Shown here piece by piece: positions 19,571 to 35,879 of a stretch of DNA of 64,000 nucleotides. The notes beneath the pieces were generated by a model. The model was not told where the DNA came from. It did not search any database and worked only from the letters and a program-made list of their open reading frames with translations. Each line of letters opens with the position of its first letter. Position 1 is the stretch's first letter. The stretch comes from a virus, in the IMG/VR virus record IMGVR_UViG_3300023202_000247, positions 186,001 to 250,000 of that record, one strand, 5' to 3'. The position numbers were made by a program, and so were the translations under genes.

Positions 19571-22500
19571 ATGACTTTGAAGCATGTAAAATTTCACCAA
19601 AGCGAAGTGATGCGCGAGTTGGAAAGACAAGCAACTCGTAAAGGCCACTTCGAACCATCTCCAAAAGAAACTGTTGATGCAGCTGCAAACAAAGCAGCGC
19701 AAAGCTTCATACCAACCAGAACTGGTAATTGGTATAATGATACGATGAACTTAGTTACCGCTCTTCGCAATGCTGGTTATGAAAAATCAGCTGCGGATAT
19801 CGAGGAGAAGGCTACGAACATGAAATTTGCCGAAGTTCATTTGTACAAGGCAATTGATGAAGATGGCGATGCTTTCATGGATTATGCTCATCCGGAAGGC
19901 GACACGGAGATAATTCCGGCTCAAGACGGGCGAGGAAAAGTTGAAAGAACAACCACAACTCATGACAAGATGCTGGATGTTTTGCACAAAAAGCCAACTG
20001 GAAAGCTTTCTGGAGAGGCTAATTTTGTTTTGAATCGTGAGGTCAAAGAAGCCGCTTTGGATGTTTTAAAAACGGCCCAAGATGTGGGTGTGATTGACAA
20101 GATTAAAAAAAAATTTGAATCTATTCAAAATATAATAAACAATGCTGGTAGTATCGTATCTGATATATCATTAAATTTTGGAAATATAATAAATAAAATA
20201 TTTCATGGTAATGCATCTGCCGTTGCATTGTATGTAAAGTATTCAGATGCTACGATGCAACAACTGCAAAATTTAATATACGCTTATAGATTCTTTTATT
20301 GGAATGGTTCCAAGTATGTAGTTAATACAAAGCAAGCAAACAGTGTAATTAGCTCACATGCTTTAAAGAATCAAAATGCATTGAGAGCAGCTTGCAAAGC
20401 TGTAGGTGTTGATGCTGATCCATATCTCAGAGCGCCTGATGGTTCAGGCTCGGTACCTCTCACATCTGCAAATAAGGCGGCAGAACTTGCTGGTAAGGTA
20501 TTGGCAGGTACCAATCATCTTTGGAACATGACATTTGGAGACTCTATTGTTAGAGAGGCAAATGAAAACTTGAAGAAAGTTTATAATGCTTTTGTTGCAG
20601 AGATGAAAACAAGTTTGCCAGTAACATCAGAGGGTATTTTTGATCGTGGTGAAATTAACTATTCTGTAGCTGTGAATAAACTAAGAAATGCAAGAAAATC
20701 ACTAGATTCAGTTTATGAACAGGGAAGCAATGCATCCAAGTTGTTTGAAATATACGAGGTATTTTCGGCGGATGAGGCGATGAATTTGCAAAAGATATTT
20801 ACCGATTTGAAGTCCAATATCGATGAAGCATTGAAGCTCATCGTAACTCAAAGCAAACAATATGGAAAAACATTCGAAGGTATCAACAGCTGGATATCTC
20901 AGGTTGCGCGTCTAAAGAAATTGTCTTTGGAGCAACGCGCAGCTTTGCCCGAAGGTTCCGAGGAACGCAAGGCAGCATATACCAACTATATAGCTGCAAA
21001 AAAAATGGAAAGCATTCTCAATGGTTTGAAAGGTAAGAGCTGGCTCGAGATTCGTTCTGTTTTGCAAGAGAACTATCAACTATATGAAACGCCAGAAGAC
21101 TTTCAAAAAGATATCGATTCCTTCAAGGCAAAGGTTTTGGGAAAAGGTGAGTCAGCAGAGGCTTCTGACGGACTTGCAACAGTTGCATCTTTGGTAAAAG
21201 CAGCCGGAGCATTTGGTGATCAGGCAAAAACTATAAAGCCTGTTTCAACAAAAACAGAACCAAAAGCAGCTCCAAAATCCACACCGGGGCAGTCGGTTCA
21301 ACGCAAAGGTCCGGTAGCAACATCTGCGGTTCCAGAAGAGGAGCAACGAGCGGTTGCACAAATGCAAAAGGTTCTCACCGAGATTTCAACTCAAATGACG
21401 CAAAATGCTGAAAACATCGCGCGTGATTTGGCACCGATGCATGACCAATCATTGCGCGGATTAACACCCGATCAGGTAAGACAGAGTGCTGCTGTAATTG
21501 GAGCAACCGGCAAGGGAACTGGTACACCTTTCGATGGTCTATGGGGTCCAAAAACTATTCGTGCTTTAGAAGAAGTAAATAGTTATGTCCAACGTGTAAA
21601 CAAATTGGAAGGTAAAAATTTACCAGCTGTGCTTCCCGGTAGCCATTATCGTCAAACAGACACCAGTAAAACGCTAGAAGATGCTGATGCGAATGTTACT
21701 GCTTTACTTGAATTTAGCAAAACAATGGGATTCAGTGTTACTGGTCCAGATGGTAGCAAGACTGAAATATCTGATTACGATCATATTCCGCAAACGTTGA
21801 CTCGCCAAAATGTTTTGGATACTGGTGATTTGACTGTTCGAAGTGTTGATGTTCAATCTTTGGAAGCATTTTATGCGTTTCTCGAGCACACCATCAATCG
21901 TACAGCAAACACAAATGCAGAGTTGGTATCCAAGGGACAGTATGGTGAAATTACTGATACTGATCAATCTGGAAAGAAAACAACTCATACCATTCGCACA
22001 ACACTTGATGATGAGCCAAAACAAGAGGGGTTTGGAACAGTTACTTGGAGACAGTTTAATGACTATCTAAAGTGGTTCGCTTATCGTGTAAACATGTTGT
22101 ATAGCAAAGCAAAGCGTGAAGGCGCTGATGCTGCTGATGTTCAAAGACTAACAGCATACAAAGATTCAATCGATGCTTTGAGTATCAAATGGTTGAAGCT
22201 CAAGCGTTGGCTCGAGCAAAACAGAGTTGATTTGGATAAATCATACGTTAGCTTTGAAGCTTTGAAAATTGTTGATACTCACCTTGGACGAAGCGGTCGC
22301 GGTCGTGAAGTTGGTGTAGGTAGAGGTAGAGGTAGAGGTAGAGGTAGAGGTAGAGGTAGAGGTAGAGGTAGAGGTAGAGGTGAAGGAGATATGGAGGGTT
22401 ACCAATATTATGATCCGGGTGTTGTCGGTGGAAGAAGCGGGCCGCTTTATGCTCCATTTTCAAATAATATGAATATGATTCAAATTGCTAAAGATTTTGG

Positions 22501-22849
22501 TTTGAATGACAGTGAAAAATTCTATGATAGAATGGCAAATCCGGTCATCAACTATGACTCGTTTGGTGGTCGGATTGATTCACTCATTAGAATGTATTTG
22601 CCAGAAGATTTGCTTGCACAAGTTGATGCAGGACAAAGAGACCCGCGTCAATTCTTGCTAAGCATGATCCGAAGATTGACTATTGATTTCAACAAAATAT
22701 ACAAAACTTGGATTCAAGAAGCTCAAACCAAGCTTCCGAAAGGTGAAAGGGTTAGCGCTTTGATGAAGAATCAAAGAGGTAACTATAATGCATGGCATCG
22801 TAGATTAGATTACTTGGAGAAGCGTATAAGGCGCAACATGGAGAGCTGA
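19571..22849 (+). CDS. Large probable internal virion protein with peptidoglycan-binding-like module
   Basis: 1092 residues, mostly helical. Residues ~50-80 carry the recurrent hairpin (LVTALRNAGYEKSAADIEEK). Residues ~651-672 read GTPFDGLWGPKTIRALEE, the core of a PG_binding_1-like repeat (GxxGPxTxxAL), here isolated. Around residues 915-940 a hexanucleotide expansion encodes about ten Gly-Arg pairs. No catalytic lysin motif is seen, so this is not an obvious endolysin. Position between decoration proteins and major capsid suggests a large internal or capsid-associated protein, perhaps ejected with the genome; that role is inference. Confidence 0.65.
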   Translation: MTLKHVKFHQSEVMRELERQATRKGHFEPSPKETVDAAANKAAQSFIPTRTGNWYNDTMNLVTALRNAGYEKSAADIEEKATNMKFAEVHLYKAIDEDGDAFMDYAHPEGDTEIIPAQDGRGKVERTTTTHDKMLDVLHKKPTGKLSGEANFVLNREVKEAALDVLKTAQDVGVIDKIKKKFESIQNIINNAGSIVSDISLNFGNIINKIFHGNASAVALYVKYSDATMQQLQNLIYAYRFFYWNGSKYVVNTKQANSVISSHALKNQNALRAACKAVGVDADPYLRAPDGSGSVPLTSANKAAELAGKVLAGTNHLWNMTFGDSIVREANENLKKVYNAFVAEMKTSLPVTSEGIFDRGEINYSVAVNKLRNARKSLDSVYEQGSNASKLFEIYEVFSADEAMNLQKIFTDLKSNIDEALKLIVTQSKQYGKTFEGINSWISQVARLKKLSLEQRAALPEGSEERKAAYTNYIAAKKMESILNGLKGKSWLEIRSVLQENYQLYETPEDFQKDIDSFKAKVLGKGESAEASDGLATVASLVKAAGAFGDQAKTIKPVSTKTEPKAAPKSTPGQSVQRKGPVATSAVPEEEQRAVAQMQKVLTEISTQMTQNAENIARDLAPMHDQSLRGLTPDQVRQSAAVIGATGKGTGTPFDGLWGPKTIRALEEVNSYVQRVNKLEGKNLPAVLPGSHYRQTDTSKTLEDADANVTALLEFSKTMGFSVTGPDGSKTEISDYDHIPQTLTRQNVLDTGDLTVRSVDVQSLEAFYAFLEHTINRTANTNAELVSKGQYGEITDTDQSGKKTTHTIRTTLDDEPKQEGFGTVTWRQFNDYLKWFAYRVNMLYSKAKREGADAADVQRLTAYKDSIDALSIKWLKLKRWLEQNRVDLDKSYVSFEALKIVDTHLGRSGRGREVGVGRGRGRGRGRGRGRGRGRGRGEGDMEGYQYYDPGVVGGRSGPLYAPFSNNMNMIQIAKDFGLNDSEKFYDRMANPVINYDSFGGRIDSLIRMYLPEDLLAQVDAGQRDPRQFLLSMIRRLTIDFNKIYKTWIQEAQTKLPKGERVSALMKNQRGNYNAWHRRLDYLEKRIRRNMES
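22319..22380 (+). repeat. (GGTAGA)n hexanucleotide tandem repeat coding Gly-Arg
   Basis: About ten perfect GGTAGA units inside the large protein, encoding an RG-repeat tract. A 6-bp unit preserves frame, so copy-number slippage would alter only tract length. RG tracts commonly bind nucleic acid; that function is inferred here. Confidence 0.95.
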
Positions 22850-26908: not shown

Positions 26909-27922
26909 ATGAGTTTATTTACCCAATCAGGCGAGTCGAATGGAGTTAGCGTAAAGGACGCTCTCGACACTCTCGTCAAATATGCAGCAATTATTGAAGA
27001 GAATCAGCCGTCCAATGCGGCTCTCGCTGGTCGTCCAAGTTTGAACGACGACAAGCGTGATGAGTTGATTTCTCGCGCAATCCTAACTAACGAGGGTAAG
27101 GTTGCTCTTGCTCAGGCAATGGCCAACCCAATTCGTCGCAACCTTGATTACCAGGGTATTGCACGTCGTGCCCTAGTCGTTGATCCACTACCACAGGGTG
27201 CAACTCCAACATATGACCGTGATATCGACGTTGCGGCAGTTGTGGTTTCCAGCAATGGTGCTGGTCCTGAGAGCCGTGTGTTCGGCGACCGCGTGGTTGT
27301 TCCAACATTCGAGCTTTTGTCGAACCCAACCGTTCGTATCTCTGAGGTACGTCGTCGTAGGTTCAACGTAATTGACCGTGCCGTTCAGAAGGCGCGTCAA
27401 GAGATCATGGCGCAAGAGGACGCGAACATTTTCGCAGCTCTTGATAACGCTGGTACCGTCGAAAACACCGCACAGGATATTTCGGATGGTGGTCTGTTGA
27501 AGCGTGACCTTGTTGAAATCAAGGTCCAGATTGATCGCTGGGACCTTGTAACAACCAAGTTCTTCATGAACATCAATGAGTTTACTGATATCCTCAACTG
27601 GGGATCCGGCGGTGGTCAGGGACCAACCGGTGGTGAGGTAGACCCGGTTACTCAGCGTGAAATTCTACAGACTGGTTTGTACGCTCACATCTGGGGCGCG
27701 GACCTCATGGTCTCGAAGATCGTTCCACCTGGCACTGTTTACGGTTGTGCAGACCCAGAGTTTGTGGGTGTGATGCCGATTCGCCAGGACATTGAGGTTA
27801 TGCCTGCGGACGAGCCGAAACAGCTAAAACTAGGTTGGGTTGTTTCCGAGGAAATCGGAATCGGCATCGTCAACGCTCGCGGTGTTGCTCTTGGTCGCAA
27901 GAGCACCGTAGTTGGCGCGTAA
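26909..27922 (+). CDS. Major capsid protein (HK97-fold type)
   Basis: 337 residues. The sequence pattern fits myovirus major capsid proteins: a charged helical N-terminal part, an E-loop-like basic stretch (SEVRRRRFNVIDRAVQKARQ), then QEDANIFAALDNAG, an alternating strand region, and the C-terminal EPKQLKLGWVVSEEIGIGIV with ARGVALGRKS. It has its own leader with a strong Shine-Dalgarno (GGAG), markedly GC-richer codons than surrounding genes, and terminators on both sides, all pointing to the most abundant virion protein. No long N-terminal scaffold, consistent with a separate scaffold upstream. Assembles the capsid shell. Confidence 0.9.
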   Translation: MSLFTQSGESNGVSVKDALDTLVKYAAIIEENQPSNAALAGRPSLNDDKRDELISRAILTNEGKVALAQAMANPIRRNLDYQGIARRALVVDPLPQGATPTYDRDIDVAAVVVSSNGAGPESRVFGDRVVVPTFELLSNPTVRISEVRRRRFNVIDRAVQKARQEIMAQEDANIFAALDNAGTVENTAQDISDGGLLKRDLVEIKVQIDRWDLVTTKFFMNINEFTDILNWGSGGGQGPTGGEVDPVTQREILQTGLYAHIWGADLMVSKIVPPGTVYGCADPEFVGVMPIRQDIEVMPADEPKQLKLGWVVSEEIGIGIVNARGVALGRKSTVVGA

Positions 27923-27957: not shown

Positions 27958-27970
27958 CAAAATTAGCTAG

Positions 27971-28006
27971 AAAAAGGGTCGGTGTTGAAACACCGACCCT
28001 TTTTCG
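27971..28006 (+). terminator. Strong terminator of the major capsid gene
   Basis: GGGTCGGTGT/ACACCGACCC perfect 10-bp stem (27976-27985 with 27990-27999), 4-nt TGAA loop, flanked by A5 and T5 followed by CGTTTTT. Confidence 0.95.
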
Positions 28007-28074
28007 TTTTTCCACACACCCAAATGAACCCAAACAATTTGTCGAGTCATATTATATTATCATGTATATATTGT

Positions 28075-30048
28075 ATGAATTTAGATGAGGTAAAATATCT
28101 AGTTGAAAATGGTATGTCGGTGAGTAAAATTGCCGTACAACATAATTGTAAAACAAATGATATTAAAGATATAATATCGAAATATAATTTATCCTTAGTA
28201 AAAGAGAGCTTTTCTGATGATAAAATTGATGAGATATGTCATTTATATAAACTTGGAGTGAGTGCAAAGCAACTTGGTAAAAAATTTTCAATAGATAAGC
28301 GTAGGATTCAGCGTTGGGTTAAAGAGCGCGGAATTTTGAGAAATAAAAATGATAGTCATCGTATCAAGTTTTTTAATCAAAATTATTTTGATAAAATAGA
28401 CTCAGCAGCAAAAGCTTATTGGCTTGGTTTTTTCTATGCTGACGCTTATAATTCAATCAAAATAAATACATTTTCAATTTCATTGAAACGTGAAGACAAA
28501 GCGCATCTTGAAAAATTATGTAACATATTGAATTTAACTACTGAAAATATATTTGACGGCTATATGTCAGGACATCCATATTCAATATTAAAGCTTTACA
28601 GCAAGCATATTTGTTTAAAAATGACAGAGCTTGGATGTCCGGTTGCGAAAAGCTTTATCATAACATATCCGAACTGGATGCCAAAAAAACTTGAACATCA
28701 TTTTATACGAGGATATTTTGATGGAGATGGTAGCTTAAATTTCACTTTAAATAAATTTAAAAATAAAGAGTGGAAAGTTTCTATTGTGTCAACAGACACA
28801 TTTTGCGAATCGATTTCCAATATATTGCTTCATCAAAATATAAAATTTTCAATAAATAACATATCAAAAACCGGAAAAAATACTAGTAATATAGAAATTA
28901 AAGGAAATGATCAAACTTTTAAATTAATGAATTGGCTATATAATAATTCAAATCAAAATATTAGATTAGATCGAAAATATCAATTATTTTTAGATTTAAA
29001 AAACCAAATGTTTATTAAAAATAACAACATCAGTTTACAACTTGGAAATTTAATTGAAATTGATGGACAAAAATTATCCGCGAAATATATTAAACAATTA
29101 AACAAGAATGAACGTGAATCATTGGTAATGCCAATTTATAACCACTTCAGAAAAACTGGATGGCAATATCCAAAAGTACATAAAGACATTTTAATTAGAG
29201 ATTATCAAAAGCTTATTGATAAAGAGATAGATATTGATAACGTTTATTTAAACAATAATGACAGAGTTTGTACAAATATATGTCATCATTTTTGTGAGTC
29301 ATATTATAGAGCTGGAACTAGAAGTATAATTGATGTGTGGAATGATGATGAAAAATTCTTATCAGTCATAAGAAACAGACTTGTATTAGATTGGCAATCA
29401 AAAACCAATGAAACATTTAATATTACTGGAAGAATGATGATTCAGGGAATTAAAAGTATGATGCTAAGTAACCCTATAAGTATATTTAAGCCGGTCATAG
29501 CAAAATACATTTGTATGAAATATTCTAATCCTGGAGAGTTAGTTGGAGATTATTCGGCCGGATTTGGTGGAAGATTACTTGGTGCTACATCGTGCGGACG
29601 CAGATATATCGGAACAGACCCCTTAACCGTTCCTGATTTAATAGATATGGTTAAATTTTATAATTTAGAAGAAACGGTAAGGCTTCATCAAGTGTGTTCA
29701 GAAAATTTTGCATTGGAAAAAAACTCAGTTGATTTATATTGGAGTAGCCCTCCATACTTTGATAAAGAAAGATATTCTGATGAAGAGTCTCAAGCTTATA
29801 ATCGTGGTGAAAATTATTTTTTTGATGTGTATTGGAAAAATACATTAAAAAATGTATATCATGCACTAAAGCCAAACAAATGGTTCGGATTAAATGTAAA
29901 AGATGTGCCTCTTATGGTTGATATGGCAAAACAATTTTTTGGCGAACCAAAAGAAATTATATATCTCTATACTAGAAGAAATCACTTAAACAAATCTTCA
30001 AATAAATATAAATTAGAACCAATTTACATGTTTTACAAAAATGCGTGA
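28075..30048 (+). CDS. HTH-LAGLIDADG homing endonuclease fused to DNA methyltransferase
   Basis: 657 residues from the ATG at 28075; frames extending further upstream start in the terminator. Residues 1-95 hold two resolvase-like helix-turn-helix units (SAKQLGKKFSIDKRRIQRWV). Residues ~110-330 are a LAGLIDADG endonuclease with AYWLGFFYADA (114-124) and HHFIRGYFDGDGSL (208-221), both acidic residues present. Residues ~340-657 are an amino-methyltransferase: HFRKTGWQYP entry, SAM motif DYSAGFGGRLLGA (492-504), GTDP, and catalytic SPPY (558-561), order as in N6-adenine/N4-cytosine enzymes. Much more AT-rich than the neighbouring capsid gene. It lies between two copies of a terminator module and before a truncated relative, so it is likely a mobile gene. 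A single protein may cut and protect DNA; inference. Confidence 0.88.
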   Translation: MNLDEVKYLVENGMSVSKIAVQHNCKTNDIKDIISKYNLSLVKESFSDDKIDEICHLYKLGVSAKQLGKKFSIDKRRIQRWVKERGILRNKNDSHRIKFFNQNYFDKIDSAAKAYWLGFFYADAYNSIKINTFSISLKREDKAHLEKLCNILNLTTENIFDGYMSGHPYSILKLYSKHICLKMTELGCPVAKSFIITYPNWMPKKLEHHFIRGYFDGDGSLNFTLNKFKNKEWKVSIVSTDTFCESISNILLHQNIKFSINNISKTGKNTSNIEIKGNDQTFKLMNWLYNNSNQNIRLDRKYQLFLDLKNQMFIKNNNISLQLGNLIEIDGQKLSAKYIKQLNKNERESLVMPIYNHFRKTGWQYPKVHKDILIRDYQKLIDKEIDIDNVYLNNNDRVCTNICHHFCESYYRAGTRSIIDVWNDDEKFLSVIRNRLVLDWQSKTNETFNITGRMMIQGIKSMMLSNPISIFKPVIAKYICMKYSNPGELVGDYSAGFGGRLLGATSCGRRYIGTDPLTVPDLIDMVKFYNLEETVRLHQVCSENFALEKNSVDLYWSSPPYFDKERYSDEESQAYNRGENYFFDVYWKNTLKNVYHALKPNKWFGLNVKDVPLMVDMAKQFFGEPKEIIYLYTRRNHLNKSSNKYKLEPIYMFYKNA

Positions 30049-30079
30049 ATAGCTAGTTAGCAATAATTAGCAAGAAGAG

Positions 30080-30107
30080 ATGCTGGTGTTTAGACACCAG
30101 CATTTTT
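30080..30107 (+). terminator. Second copy of capsid-type terminator
   Basis: ATGCTGGTGT/ACACCAGCAT stem (30080-30089 with 30094-30103), TTAG loop, followed by TTTT and CGTTTA. With its upstream GCTAGTTAGCAA it parallels the terminator at 27949-28006. Confidence 0.93.
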
Positions 30108-30165: not shown

Positions 30166-30414
30166 ATGTCAAAAAAGATATCCGATATTAAAGTTCATAA
30201 AATTTTAACTTTATATGCTGATGGCAATTCGACGCATGATGTATCTAAGCTTACTGATGTTTCTCAAACGCAAGTAAGAAGAATATTAAAGAAAAACAAT
30301 ATGAATATACGTCAAGTTAAAACCAGTAAAGATATTGAAAGACAAATTTGTGCATTATATGATTCAGAAGAATCATCTGAAAAATTGCCGCATATATGCA
30401 ATAAAAGTATATAA
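30166..30414 (+). CDS. Small helix-turn-helix protein, probable truncated endonuclease N-terminus
   Basis: 82 residues. ILTLYADGNSTHDVSKLTD then SQTQVRRILKKNN is a resolvase/Hin-type helix-turn-helix; a second unit begins (QICALYDSEESSE) and is cut off at the stop, 7 nt before the tail-fibre gene. The arrangement equals the N-terminal two-HTH region of the 657-residue endonuclease upstream, without its catalytic parts. Either a degraded second mobile gene or a retained DNA-binding protein. Very AT-rich, no clear Shine-Dalgarno. Confidence 0.65.
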   Translation: MSKKISDIKVHKILTLYADGNSTHDVSKLTDVSQTQVRRILKKNNMNIRQVKTSKDIERQICALYDSEESSEKLPHICNKSI

Positions 30415-30420
30415 ATATGT

Positions 30421-31947
30421 ATGACCACTTCTGGATTTAACACCGGTAAAAAAAACTTTACAGTAAACTTTACTGTAAAAAATGTTTCATCCAAAAATAT
30501 TAGAGTTTTTGGATTTCCAATTCCACCAGGAAGACAACGCGATCTTCTAGCTATTCCATACGTTGGCGAAGATGATATACGATCTTCTTTGATAAAAGGA
30601 GAATTGTATAATAAATTACAATCTGGTGAAATAAATGTTGTTACAAGTAGCAATAATCTAGTAACATTTGATGATTCTTTTAAAAATTATCTTGGATCGC
30701 GTGGAGTATCTGGAATTACTATTGCTTTACCCGACACGAGCCAGGCGACGTGGTTCATCGACGCGGTGAACGGCGACGATGTGAACGACGGCGCGACTGC
30801 GGCCACCGCACTGGCCTCGTGGGGCGAGTTGGTCGAGCGGCTGGGCCCGAACCCGGTGTTCGCTAACAACAATGTGGCGATCATCATCCTGTCCGATCTT
30901 GAGGAGGTCATCGGCTTCACGAACATGGCTTGTGAATCGGTGCAAGTGTCTTTAACTGGCAATCCCATCGTAACGGCTAGTGGCACTCTCACCGGCGCTT
31001 CCAACGTCAACCGAACGGGAGGATCCGCCGCTCGGCAAGAAATCGAGCAAGCTGCATTTGATTGGACGCCTTACGTGGGCATGTTGATCCGGTTGAGCAA
31101 TGGCGCAATGGCATGGATCGATGAGGTCGATCCCACTGGTGGAGGCGTTTCGACGGCCAGCACGTCACGTTTCTATGACGTTCCTTCGTTCTCAGCATAC
31201 AGCCCGGTCGGAAACGAAACTTGGGAAGTTTTACGGCTCCCCAAGGTTGAGGGGATGGCTCTAAGCGGTAATGCGTTCGACTTCACTCCATCCTTCGATG
31301 CGCCCTTGTCCATCGAATTGCTGGACTTCGAGCCGACGGGCGGATCGGTGTTCGGCCGAGCCTGCTACCAGCTTGAATTTGGGGGAGGAGCATTCCCCGT
31401 CGTCATGAACAATTGCCGAATCAATACTGACTGGTTACGGTTCGGGCAAACGCCTGTTTCTTGCTCGAACGTGTTTCTGACCGATTCTGGAACATCCGTA
31501 TCCATTATTGGCAACAACGCGGTATCCTTCACAGCTGGGCTCATTAGCACGGGGACCCTGTTAGCCTACACGTCGAACATGTCTCATAGTACAGACATGC
31601 TAACGCGCGCGAAAATCGCTTTGCAGCCGGGAAGCACGATAACTGTGCAGGGCAATGGACTAGGAAGTTTCGTGAGCGGTGGAAACGCATTCACCGTATC
31701 GCCGGGCTGTACGTTGAATTGCGGAGATAGAGGCATATATGGTACCGGGGCTGCGCTGGCGTTCAAAAACCAGCCGGGAGGCACGATAACCTACGCCACC
31801 AATCCGCCCACCGGTATCCAAAGTGTGGCCGACCCGGCCAATACGCAAAATGGCGACGCAGCAAACACGCTCACCTATGCCGGCGGTGCGCCCGACTGGG
31901 CCACGGGCGACGTCAATCGCGGCGCTATCGTGCAGCCGGTATTCTAG
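30421..31947 (+). CDS. Chimeric tail fibre/tailspike protein with GC-rich C-terminal domain
   Basis: 508 residues. Residues 1-100 (NFTVKNVSSKNIRVFGFPI, then GRQRDLLAIPYVGEDDI) are nearly the same module as the N-terminus of the tailspike at 34602, so they probably attach the fibre to the virion. From about 30730 the DNA changes abruptly from AT-rich to clearly GC-rich, and the protein becomes a Gly/Thr/Asn-rich parallel beta-helix-like domain starting WFIDAVNGDDVNDGATAATA, a frequent opening of receptor-binding domains. The GC-rich stretch ends near 31975, where AT-rich esterase remains begin. This looks like a recent in-frame domain replacement altering host recognition. No enzymatic residues assigned. 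Confidence 0.78.
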   Translation: MTTSGFNTGKKNFTVNFTVKNVSSKNIRVFGFPIPPGRQRDLLAIPYVGEDDIRSSLIKGELYNKLQSGEINVVTSSNNLVTFDDSFKNYLGSRGVSGITIALPDTSQATWFIDAVNGDDVNDGATAATALASWGELVERLGPNPVFANNNVAIIILSDLEEVIGFTNMACESVQVSLTGNPIVTASGTLTGASNVNRTGGSAARQEIEQAAFDWTPYVGMLIRLSNGAMAWIDEVDPTGGGVSTASTSRFYDVPSFSAYSPVGNETWEVLRLPKVEGMALSGNAFDFTPSFDAPLSIELLDFEPTGGSVFGRACYQLEFGGGAFPVVMNNCRINTDWLRFGQTPVSCSNVFLTDSGTSVSIIGNNAVSFTAGLISTGTLLAYTSNMSHSTDMLTRAKIALQPGSTITVQGNGLGSFVSGGNAFTVSPGCTLNCGDRGIYGTGAALAFKNQPGGTITYATNPPTGIQSVADPANTQNGDAANTLTYAGGAPDWATGDVNRGAIVQPVF

Positions 31948-34012: not shown

Positions 34013-34092
34013 CTCGTAAGCAGCAACCTAAGCGTGCAGGTGATGAACCAACAAAACTCTCTAAGTCCAGGGAGAAGTACACGGGCAAATAA
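34012..34092 (+). other. Short non-phage-like coding remnant
   Basis: Directly after the LamG fibre stop a second frame encodes KQQPKRAGDEPTKLSKSREK and ends at TAA 34090-34092. It looks like the C-terminal tail of some other protein carried along with the GC-rich import. No start codon; treated as a fragment. Confidence 0.35.
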
Positions 34093-34343
34093 TGCCAGAA
34101 CATGTTCATTTATTCATTCAAGTCGGTCCTTTGGACCGACCGAATGATATATCAAAAACGTTAAAGAGCATATCAGCAGTACATATATTCGGAAAGTTTC
34201 CTAAATTTTTAGATGAGTATATTCTGCCTTATATGTCAAATGTATTTGTAACATCAAACAATAGAACATATGAAGAAGATTTTATAAATGCATATGAGAC
34301 TCCTGGATGGGGCATAATAACAATTTATAATAAAAAAGTTTAG
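34092..34343 (+). pseudogene. IS200/IS605-type transposase (Y1/HUH) C-terminal remnant
   Basis: 83 residues beginning MPEHVHLFIQVGPLDRPNDI. The HVH is the HUH metal-binding motif of Y1 transposases, where the family consensus reads MPDHVHLL, and the following ISKTLKSISAVHIFGKFPKF fits the helix after it. A late NAYE tyrosine could be the catalytic residue. The N-terminal third of the normal protein is missing because GC-rich fibre DNA abuts. A perfect 8-bp hairpin GTCGGTCC/GGACCGAC (34122-34140) lies within the frame. No TnpB or terminal hairpins are seen. Probably a decayed insertion, possibly linked to the nearby domain exchanges. Confidence 0.6.
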
Positions 34344-34601: not shown

Positions 34602-35879
34602 ATGACAAATTTAAGCTCAGGTGTAAAGAAGTTTCCAATAAACTTTACCGTAAAAAATATATCATCTAAAAAACTTAAAATTTTTGGATATCCAATAGAG
34701 CCAGGAAGACAACGCGACTTATTGGCAATTCCATATGTTAGCGAAGAAGACATCAAACTGTCTTGGATAAAAGGTGACCTTTATGTCAAACGTCAAGCTA
34801 AAGAAATATCGATAGTTTCAAGTTCAATTAATCTCATAACATTTGATGCAGATTTTCAGTCTTATCTTCATAACAATGGTGTTGCAGCTGGTACTGAACT
34901 TGACCTATCTCCAATTCAAGAAAATAAATTAGATAGAAGTTATGATAGATACATCAACGTAGAAGATTTTGGAGCAGTTGGTGATGGCGAAACTGATGAT
35001 ACGGTTGCAGTACAAGATGCAATAAATGCTGCAAATGGTCAACCAGTTATTTTTACTGGTGGAAAGATATATTATTGTCCATCAGCACCATTGACTATAA
35101 CAAAATCATCATCACTTATTGGTATGGGTTTTCCACGTGCAAGATTGGATGGATATGTTATATATGATGCACCATCTGATCAAACCGAGTTGCAGTTGGA
35201 AAACTTATGGATACGCGGAACTGATGAAATATGTTTACTTTTGAAATCTCCAATAAGTAGAAGAAGTATATTTAGAGATTTAGAGTTTGATGGAGGTACT
35301 GATGCTGCTATTAGGATAAATAATAGTTGTATAGGTACGAGTTGGCAAAACATTCTTATTCGCAATGCTCCAAATTATGGTGTTAGAGTTGATGAAACTG
35401 TAAATATTAATGCAACACAATGGCGCAGTTGTAGATTCGTTGGTACTAAAATTGCTGGGTTTAGAGCCGGTAGCACTAAAGGATCGTTGTATGAGATTCA
35501 ATTTCACGGGTGCTTGTTTGAGGGTAACTATGGTACTGGTTTAGATATTGAATGTGGAGTTAACTTTAATGTAACAGGGTGTCATTTTGAACAAAATGAT
35601 GGATATGATATTATAATGGGAAGCAATAACGGTATAGTTGCGTGTAGGCTTAGATTGGTAGACACAGTATTTTCTGCTCAGGGAGATGATAACCCGCCCC
35701 CGCGCAGAATATTATTTAGAAATCATCATTCTGTGTTGATATTAGACAATGCTCATAGTGGCGCAAGTGTAGATGGTCAAAATCAAACGGCAGGTTCTAT
35801 AATTCACATATTAAATTATTTTGGCAGTATATTAATTGATAATTTTCCTGCTGAGAAAATAAAACAATGGCCAGAATAA
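34602..35879 (+). CDS. Tailspike with pectate-lyase-like beta-helix
   Basis: 425 residues. Residues 1-100 are the same virion-anchor module as the gene at 30421 (NFTVKNISSKKLKIFGYPI, GRQRDLLAIPYVSEEDI). From residue ~112, INVEDFGAVGDGETDDTVA is the signature start of the pectate lyase 3/tailspike beta-helix family, followed by helix rungs with regular Asn, Gly and Cys (FRDLEFDGG, NILIRNAPNYGV, CHFEQNDGYD). Uniform AT-rich composition, so this spike seems native, unlike its two chimeric neighbours. Likely binds or cuts host surface polysaccharide; catalytic residues not assigned. Confidence 0.85.
   Translation: MTNLSSGVKKFPINFTVKNISSKKLKIFGYPIEPGRQRDLLAIPYVSEEDIKLSWIKGDLYVKRQAKEISIVSSSINLITFDADFQSYLHNNGVAAGTELDLSPIQENKLDRSYDRYINVEDFGAVGDGETDDTVAVQDAINAANGQPVIFTGGKIYYCPSAPLTITKSSSLIGMGFPRARLDGYVIYDAPSDQTELQLENLWIRGTDEICLLLKSPISRRSIFRDLEFDGGTDAAIRINNSCIGTSWQNILIRNAPNYGVRVDETVNINATQWRSCRFVGTKIAGFRAGSTKGSLYEIQFHGCLFEGNYGTGLDIECGVNFNVTGCHFEQNDGYDIIMGSNNGIVACRLRLVDTVFSAQGDDNPPPRRILFRNHHSVLILDNAHSGASVDGQNQTAGSIIHILNYFGSILIDNFPAEKIKQWPE

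Follow-up and report, generated by a model that had tools for sequence, protein, structure and literature searches.

The stretch of DNA analysed here, termed the window, covers 64,000 nucleotides of a 321,461-base virus record. Directly downstream of its major capsid protein (MCP) gene, a single gene of this giant phage encodes a predicted nuclease and a predicted methylase within one chain. The locus comprises the following features, with residues numbered in the fused protein:

26909..27922, + strand: MCP gene, the conserved neighbour on the 5′ side (phrog_2522, 1.4e-74)
27970..28005, + strand: terminator after the capsid gene
28075..30048, + strand: fused HTH-LAGLIDADG-methyltransferase gene, 657 aa (ORF, Pfam, PHROG, AlphaFold2)
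28075..28359, + strand: two helix-turn-helix (HTH) units, residues 1-95 (HTH_7, HTH_23; helices in the AlphaFold2 model)
28372..29004, + strand: monomeric LAGLIDADG nuclease domain, residues ~100-310 (phrog_4645, LAGLIDADG_3; two helix-strand-strand-helix repeats in the model; Foldseek)
28441..28443, + strand: catalytic Asp 123 of LAGLIDADG motif 1 (conserved in 21/21 fused and 32/32 separate sequences)
28726..28728, + strand: catalytic Asp 218 of LAGLIDADG motif 2 (conserved in 20/21 fused and 31/32 separate sequences)
29020..29034, + strand: interdomain linker of low confidence, residues 316-320 (pLDDT <50; separate methyltransferases begin at the equivalent of residues 318-321)
29035..30045, + strand: complete predicted amino-methyltransferase domain, residues 321-657 (end-to-end alignment with the stand-alone methyltransferases L102, L180 and L151)
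29548..29574, + strand: methyltransferase motif I, DYSAGFGGR, SAM binding, residues 492-500 (no variation at the D, the two G or the R positions across 29 fused sequences)
29743..29757, + strand: methyltransferase motif IV, SSPPY, catalytic, residues 557-561 (of 29 fused sequences, all keep the second S and the second P and 28 keep the first P; the motif ends in Y or F)
30076..30107, + strand: terminator downstream of the fused gene; the preceding GCTAGTTAGCAATAATTAGC is similar to what lies ahead of the MCP terminator
30166..30414, + strand: HTH-only ORF, 82 aa, which probably derives by decay from a further homing endonuclease gene (match to the N end of the HEG profile at E 6.6e-6; HTH_23)
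30421..31947, + strand: resident structural gene; in L219, a relative with an empty site, it comes next after the capsid gene, 128 nt away

The fused gene is a single open frame of 657 aa counted from the ATG at 28075; its stop-to-stop frame begins at 27967 and includes an alternative in-frame ATG at 28024. The gene is intergenic, with one terminator on either side, and has a G+C content of 26-33% versus 51-53% for the capsid gene. Relative L219, whose capsid protein is closely related, provides the empty site: the two resident genes that stand so close together there are separated by 2.5 kb in the window. The flank repeat GCTAGTTAGCAANAATTAGC was located only after the fused gene in a search allowing up to 3 mismatches, and therefore no target-site claim is drawn from it. 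A search of the 321 kb record returned no second copy of the fused gene. Elsewhere in the window, the ORFs at 30421-31947 and 34602-35879 have a homologous N-terminal region (NFTVKN...) and are apparently paralogous structural genes, a short IS200-like (Y1) transposase fragment lies between structural genes at 34092-34343, and a 1092-aa ORF at 19571-22849 carries a long Arg-Gly repeat run (RGRGRG...) close to its C end.

The original prediction described two HTH units, a LAGLIDADG pair and an amino-methyltransferase joined in one uninterrupted frame. This architecture is confirmed by the ORF, in which no stop or frameshift falls between the halves, and by Pfam and PHROG matches, motifs and an AlphaFold2 model. 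Pfam places HTH_7 at residues 3-25 (E 5.6e-4) and HTH_23 at residues 57-83 (E 1e-3), and the model has the corresponding helices at 3-11/16-22/27-36 and 48-60/64-71/75-84. The PHROG 4645 ‘endonuclease’ profile spans residues 12-308 (2.9e-51), and LAGLIDADG_3 exceeds its Pfam gathering threshold at residues 209-272. The first LAGLIDADG motif of the window protein reads LGFFYADAY, its final G replaced by A as in 13/21 fused members; the second reads YFDGDG. The model (mean pLDDT 89.6, pTM 0.53) predicts two well-folded parts whose relative placement is uncertain. Foldseek matches the nuclease part to the LAGLIDADG endonucleases I-Tsp061I (5e-8), I-AniI (3e-7) and I-OnuI, and the model and these matches agree on a monomeric two-repeat LAGLIDADG fold.

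Judged by its motifs, fold, PHROG matches and threshold-passing relatives, the C half is an amino-methyltransferase. The window protein itself scores 18.9 bits against Pfam N6_N4_Mtase, below the gathering score of 26.7 (E 1.6e-3), and the relatives L004, L268, L281 and L297 exceed that score. Its PHROG matches are phrog_12517 (1e-10) and phrog_498 DNA methyltransferase (1.2e-10). Both a SAM motif I and an [S/D/N]PP[Y/F] motif IV are present, together with a Rossmann fold, and the single exception in motif IV among the 29 fused sequences is one P-to-T change. Foldseek matches this part to class I methyltransferases (for example Trm11, 4e-8) and to viral N4-cytosine methyltransferases; since several of the top PDB matches are tRNA methyltransferases, RNA may also be a substrate. 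The LAGLIDADG and methyltransferase matches come separately, one half each, and none of the 50 matches listed in predicted viral structures covers both halves well. An intein or a methylase-internal insertion is ruled out, as stand-alone methyltransferases begin at the fusion joint and Pfam finds no intein domain. A group I intron-encoded endonuclease was likewise rejected: there is no Rfam match in the window, and the gene is intergenic between terminators.

The recurrence of the fusion was assessed in viral contigs, which were scanned with the capsid protein, reading the downstream regions, and separately with methylase-only alignments. Downstream of the capsid gene, the capsid-protein scan found fusions, nucleases only, separate nuclease and methylase genes, and empty sites. 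All scans together recovered 70 distinct related methylases, 58 of them within 3.5 kb of an MCP gene and 34 fused, by profile, to a LAGLIDADG or PD-(D/E)XK nuclease; for some methylases outside this fused count, which lack a profile hit, a nuclease was recognised with Pfam or on visual inspection. A separate homing-type nuclease gene adjoins nearly all remaining MCP-adjacent methylases. The nuclease comes first and the methylase second in every fusion, and one fused unit (L123/L226) is encoded on the opposite strand. Several of the contigs are identical across samples (L096/L097/L002; L259-L261; L254/L255). The original prediction had allowed that homologues might only ever be separate genes and this one an assembly join. 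Fused homologues occur in more than 30 other contigs, and because these are independent, an assembly join or chance frame is ruled out.

Three scans with methylase-only queries again landed directly 3′ of the MCP gene; because the query was the methylase alone, this linkage was not selected for. Within the window's methylase clade, 21/27 members lie near an MCP gene and 26/27 near a nuclease, compared with 0/76 and 1/76 in a control set of 76 distinct general phage relatives of the methylase. Methylases with neither neighbour (L277, L298-L300, L315) resemble ordinary phage methylases. The counted set comprises 74 non-redundant MCP loci, each with 3.5 kb or more of downstream sequence; 16 of them carry a methylase and a nuclease, 0 a methylase alone and 18 a nuclease alone. 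At the other 40 neither was detected, and thus the insertion is absent from some related genomes and present in others. A nuclease is found at 16/16 methylase-bearing loci versus 18/58 methylase-free loci (Fisher p 3e-7), a value that is merely indicative because fusions are scored as both partners by definition, methylase loci supplied the seeds for the HNH and PD-(D/E)XK profiles, and the loci are related by descent. The fusion used as a single-protein query gave no matches on viral contigs because its relatives are only ~50% identical, and profile scans were required. A genome scan returned just four weak, partial matches; thus, no bacterial source was seen.

The original prediction knew of no described fusion of this order. 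None of this homing endonuclease-methyltransferase kind was found in the literature searched, which covered little of the subscription journals, or among annotated phage records; a set of 50,697 phage records held no such fusion except an unannotated relative in LR745208.1 (485 kb, public). The fusion may be new.

On sequence grounds, members of one methylase family are found with nucleases of at least six types at the same spot, a placement at the capsid-gene flank across many phages that the original prediction had not seen. The paired types are phrog_4645 LAGLIDADG, LAGLIDADG_2, a third LAGLIDADG group, HNH_repeat/PD-(D/E)XK, zinc-finger/Vsr-like and HNH, with partners at the following loci:

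LAGLIDADG_2: L002, L098, L279-L285, L308-L314
third LAGLIDADG group: L296, L297
HNH_repeat PD-(D/E)XK: L174 (fused); L164, L167, L169
PD-(D/E)XK-like with NUMOD3-like repeats, by eye: L289-L295, L322-L330
zinc-finger/Vsr-like: L265 and L007 (fused); L331
HNH: L159, L271, L273
nuclease without a profile match: L286 (LAGLIDADG_2); L265 and L331 (zinc-finger/Vsr-like); L273 (two HNH genes)

Other genes also gather at these loci. Many separate methylases adjoin an LPG_synthase_C/GNAT-like gene of ~250 aa, a possible base-modification partner (L102, 2571-3323; L148, L149, L151, L169, L244-L250, L265, L267, L270, L271, L273). In L246 (3044-4978), a LAGLIDADG nuclease is fused to a GNAT-like protein and the methylase is separate. 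Second methylase genes lie beside the module in L159 (6662-7321), L152 (8203-8880) and L274 (755-1429), an arrangement found in restriction systems with asymmetric sites. A gut-phage homing endonuclease in L005 (2995-3882) carries one in-frame stop, for which decay or stop-codon reassignment are possible explanations.

Phylogenies and substitution rates indicate mobility combined with constraint. Of the 18 rows in the window-type methylase clade (support 100/98), 11 are fused and 7 separate. The starred branches require at least 3 changes of fusion state on the methyltransferase tree and at least 6 on the HEG tree, where, for example, the sister nucleases of L123 and L179 are fused and separate, respectively. 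MCPs that are ~90% identical may carry nuclease domains only 23-47% identical, and other such pairs 60-70%; low nuclease identity beside ~90% identical capsids is the pattern that mobile-gene turnover would give. Both catalytic acids are retained in 20/21 fused and 31/32 separate nucleases. Pairs similar enough for measurement give dN/dS of ~0.05-0.4 for each half (L279/L280: N 0.072/0.915, C 0.070/0.911; L208/L257: N 0.159/0.933, C 0.075/1.451), values that are rough because dS is near or above 1 and close to saturation. These ratios indicate that purifying selection acts on the nuclease half and the methylase half alike. One fused nuclease, in L106 (7139-9070), has a dead second motif (FDGKG) and lies right after a separate nuclease with intact motifs. 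The capsid genes of L243, L251, L252 and L257 are split at two different positions by HTH-LAGLIDADG_2-type ORFs, and no Rfam intron match was found in the split-MCP loci. These LAGLIDADG ORFs, which interrupt the MCP gene in several relatives, suggest the capsid region as a homing target.

Homing nucleases cut alleles that lack them and are then copied in by repair; their carrier is believed to escape cutting because the inserted gene disrupts the target. We give roughly even chances to the reading that the fused gene is a self-protecting homing endonuclease, its methylase shielding the carrier's own target. The HTH and LAGLIDADG part would recognise a long site, either within the capsid gene or next to it, and cleave it wherever a related co-infecting phage carries it unmodified. 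The insert and its flank would then be copied by repair templated on the carrier genome, or the rival would simply be excluded. Guided by the same DNA-binding part, the methyltransferase half would modify the site in the carrier genome and its progeny. A nuclease aimed at the capsid region, which cannot be lost, would need protection if the gene's own insertion leaves the site intact; with that site modified, the nuclease would be free to attack conserved, essential DNA without having to disrupt it by inserting there.

The original prediction had likewise proposed a selfish gene with its own protection, to which the survey adds that the methylase here nearly always accompanies a homing-type nuclease of whatever family; cleavage, methylation, shared specificity and the protective role we infer. 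Directly supported are the architecture, its recurrence at one locus, the exchange of nuclease families with the methylase kept, the intact catalytic residues, purifying selection on the two halves, and empty versus occupied sites. Retention of the methylase while the nuclease family changes at one locus appears to fit self-protecting homing best. Against it, a methylase is missing from 18/34 MCP-set loci that bear a nuclease, so a nuclease can persist without one. The L106 fusion with its dead second LAGLIDADG motif also counts against it, though an intact separate nuclease lies upstream. The acyltransferase-like gene beside unfused methylases (L148, L197, L246) hints at another modification role.

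The main rival remains a methylase carried as cargo: at times with an acyltransferase-like partner, it would guard the phage genome against host restriction and spread through linkage to homing nucleases at a hotspot, fusion tightening the linkage without the two targets being shared. Orphan methylases are common in phages (PMC11855218), the separate methylase genes at this site also accompany the LPG_synthase_C/GNAT-like gene, and in L246 the nuclease is fused to an acyltransferase-like protein instead. We nonetheless consider cargo carriage rather unlikely, since relatives of the methylase elsewhere in phages are unlinked to nucleases (1/76), and a repeated, same-order, in-frame fusion with catalytic residues conserved in both halves calls for joint function.

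Alternatively, the LAGLIDADG/HTH part could now guide a site-specific methylase whose product marks DNA with no cutting, by analogy with LAGLIDADG maturases that have lost cutting. L106 would suit such a role, as it retains a fused LAGLIDADG domain with GKG replacing the catalytic GDG. Both catalytic acids are kept in 20/21 fused nucleases, however, and dN/dS indicates constraint, making targeting without cutting improbable. We think it just as doubtful that homing genes merely landed beside a resident methylase at a recombination hotspot and that stops were lost with no functional coupling. The MCP flank does gather many mobile genes, and fusion and fission recur, but in the counted set a methylase is found at 0/40 nuclease-free MCP loci. 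The invariable nuclease-then-methylase order, the constraint on both halves and the fused unit on the opposite strand in L123/L226 argue further against such an accident.

Building on self-protecting homing, it is conceivable, if somewhat short of probable, that these genes form a new selfish class, the homing-modification module: a capsid-flank methylase family of giant phages that recruits at least six homing nucleases by fusion or adjacency, attacking an essential gene of rivals while the carrier is protected by methylation. If true, the module would be restriction-modification and gene drive in one gene and would directly connect homing genes with restriction-modification systems. A built-in methylase would release homing endonucleases from the need to destroy their own target by insertion. 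The protein would be, maybe, the first LAGLIDADG enzyme with a modification partner, and would provide a readable mechanism of giant-phage competition. On the horizon is a possible tool, a long-site cutter that brings its own protecting methylase.

Several known systems share parts of this design. Single-chain Type IIG/IIC restriction-modification enzymes have an N-terminal nuclease and a C-terminal methyltransferase, as does the window protein, whose nuclease is instead LAGLIDADG (or varies by relative) and which is phage-borne at a homing-type locus. A Type II review names PD-(D/E)XK, HNH, GIY-YIG, PLD and half-pipe, and the word LAGLIDADG is absent from it (PMC4081073); the window nuclease thus falls outside the catalytic classes listed there. 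The N half belongs with the free-standing HTH-LAGLIDADG phage homing endonucleases (PHROG 4645) by profile, motifs and fold. Many unfused examples are found in staphylococcal, crAss-like and Bacillus phages, and unfused relatives also lie at the same capsid flank; the window protein differs in the complete methyltransferase attached to it, which is absent from annotated database hits. Bacillus phage G, a cultured jumbo phage whose MCP is 55% identical to the window's, carries a homing-type nuclease, gp28, directly 3′ of the MCP gene (L305, 5961-6893, annotated merely as gp28), but no methylase partner at the locus. The intron nuclease gp210 of PhiPA3 holds back a rival in the same infection by cleaving one of its essential genes (PMC11620839), and is likewise a jumbo-phage homing nuclease turned against a co-infecting relative. 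In contrast, gp210, an HNH nicking enzyme encoded within an intron, attacks the homologue of the site where it is itself inserted, and ‘methyl’ is absent from that paper (PMC11620839). The nearest case found in the literature is the ShiLan type, which also places a homing gene and a phage methylase at one locus; there, an HNH gene lies inside a mycobacteriophage methylase gene in another frame (PMC11855218), whereas the fusion in the window is end to end and in frame.
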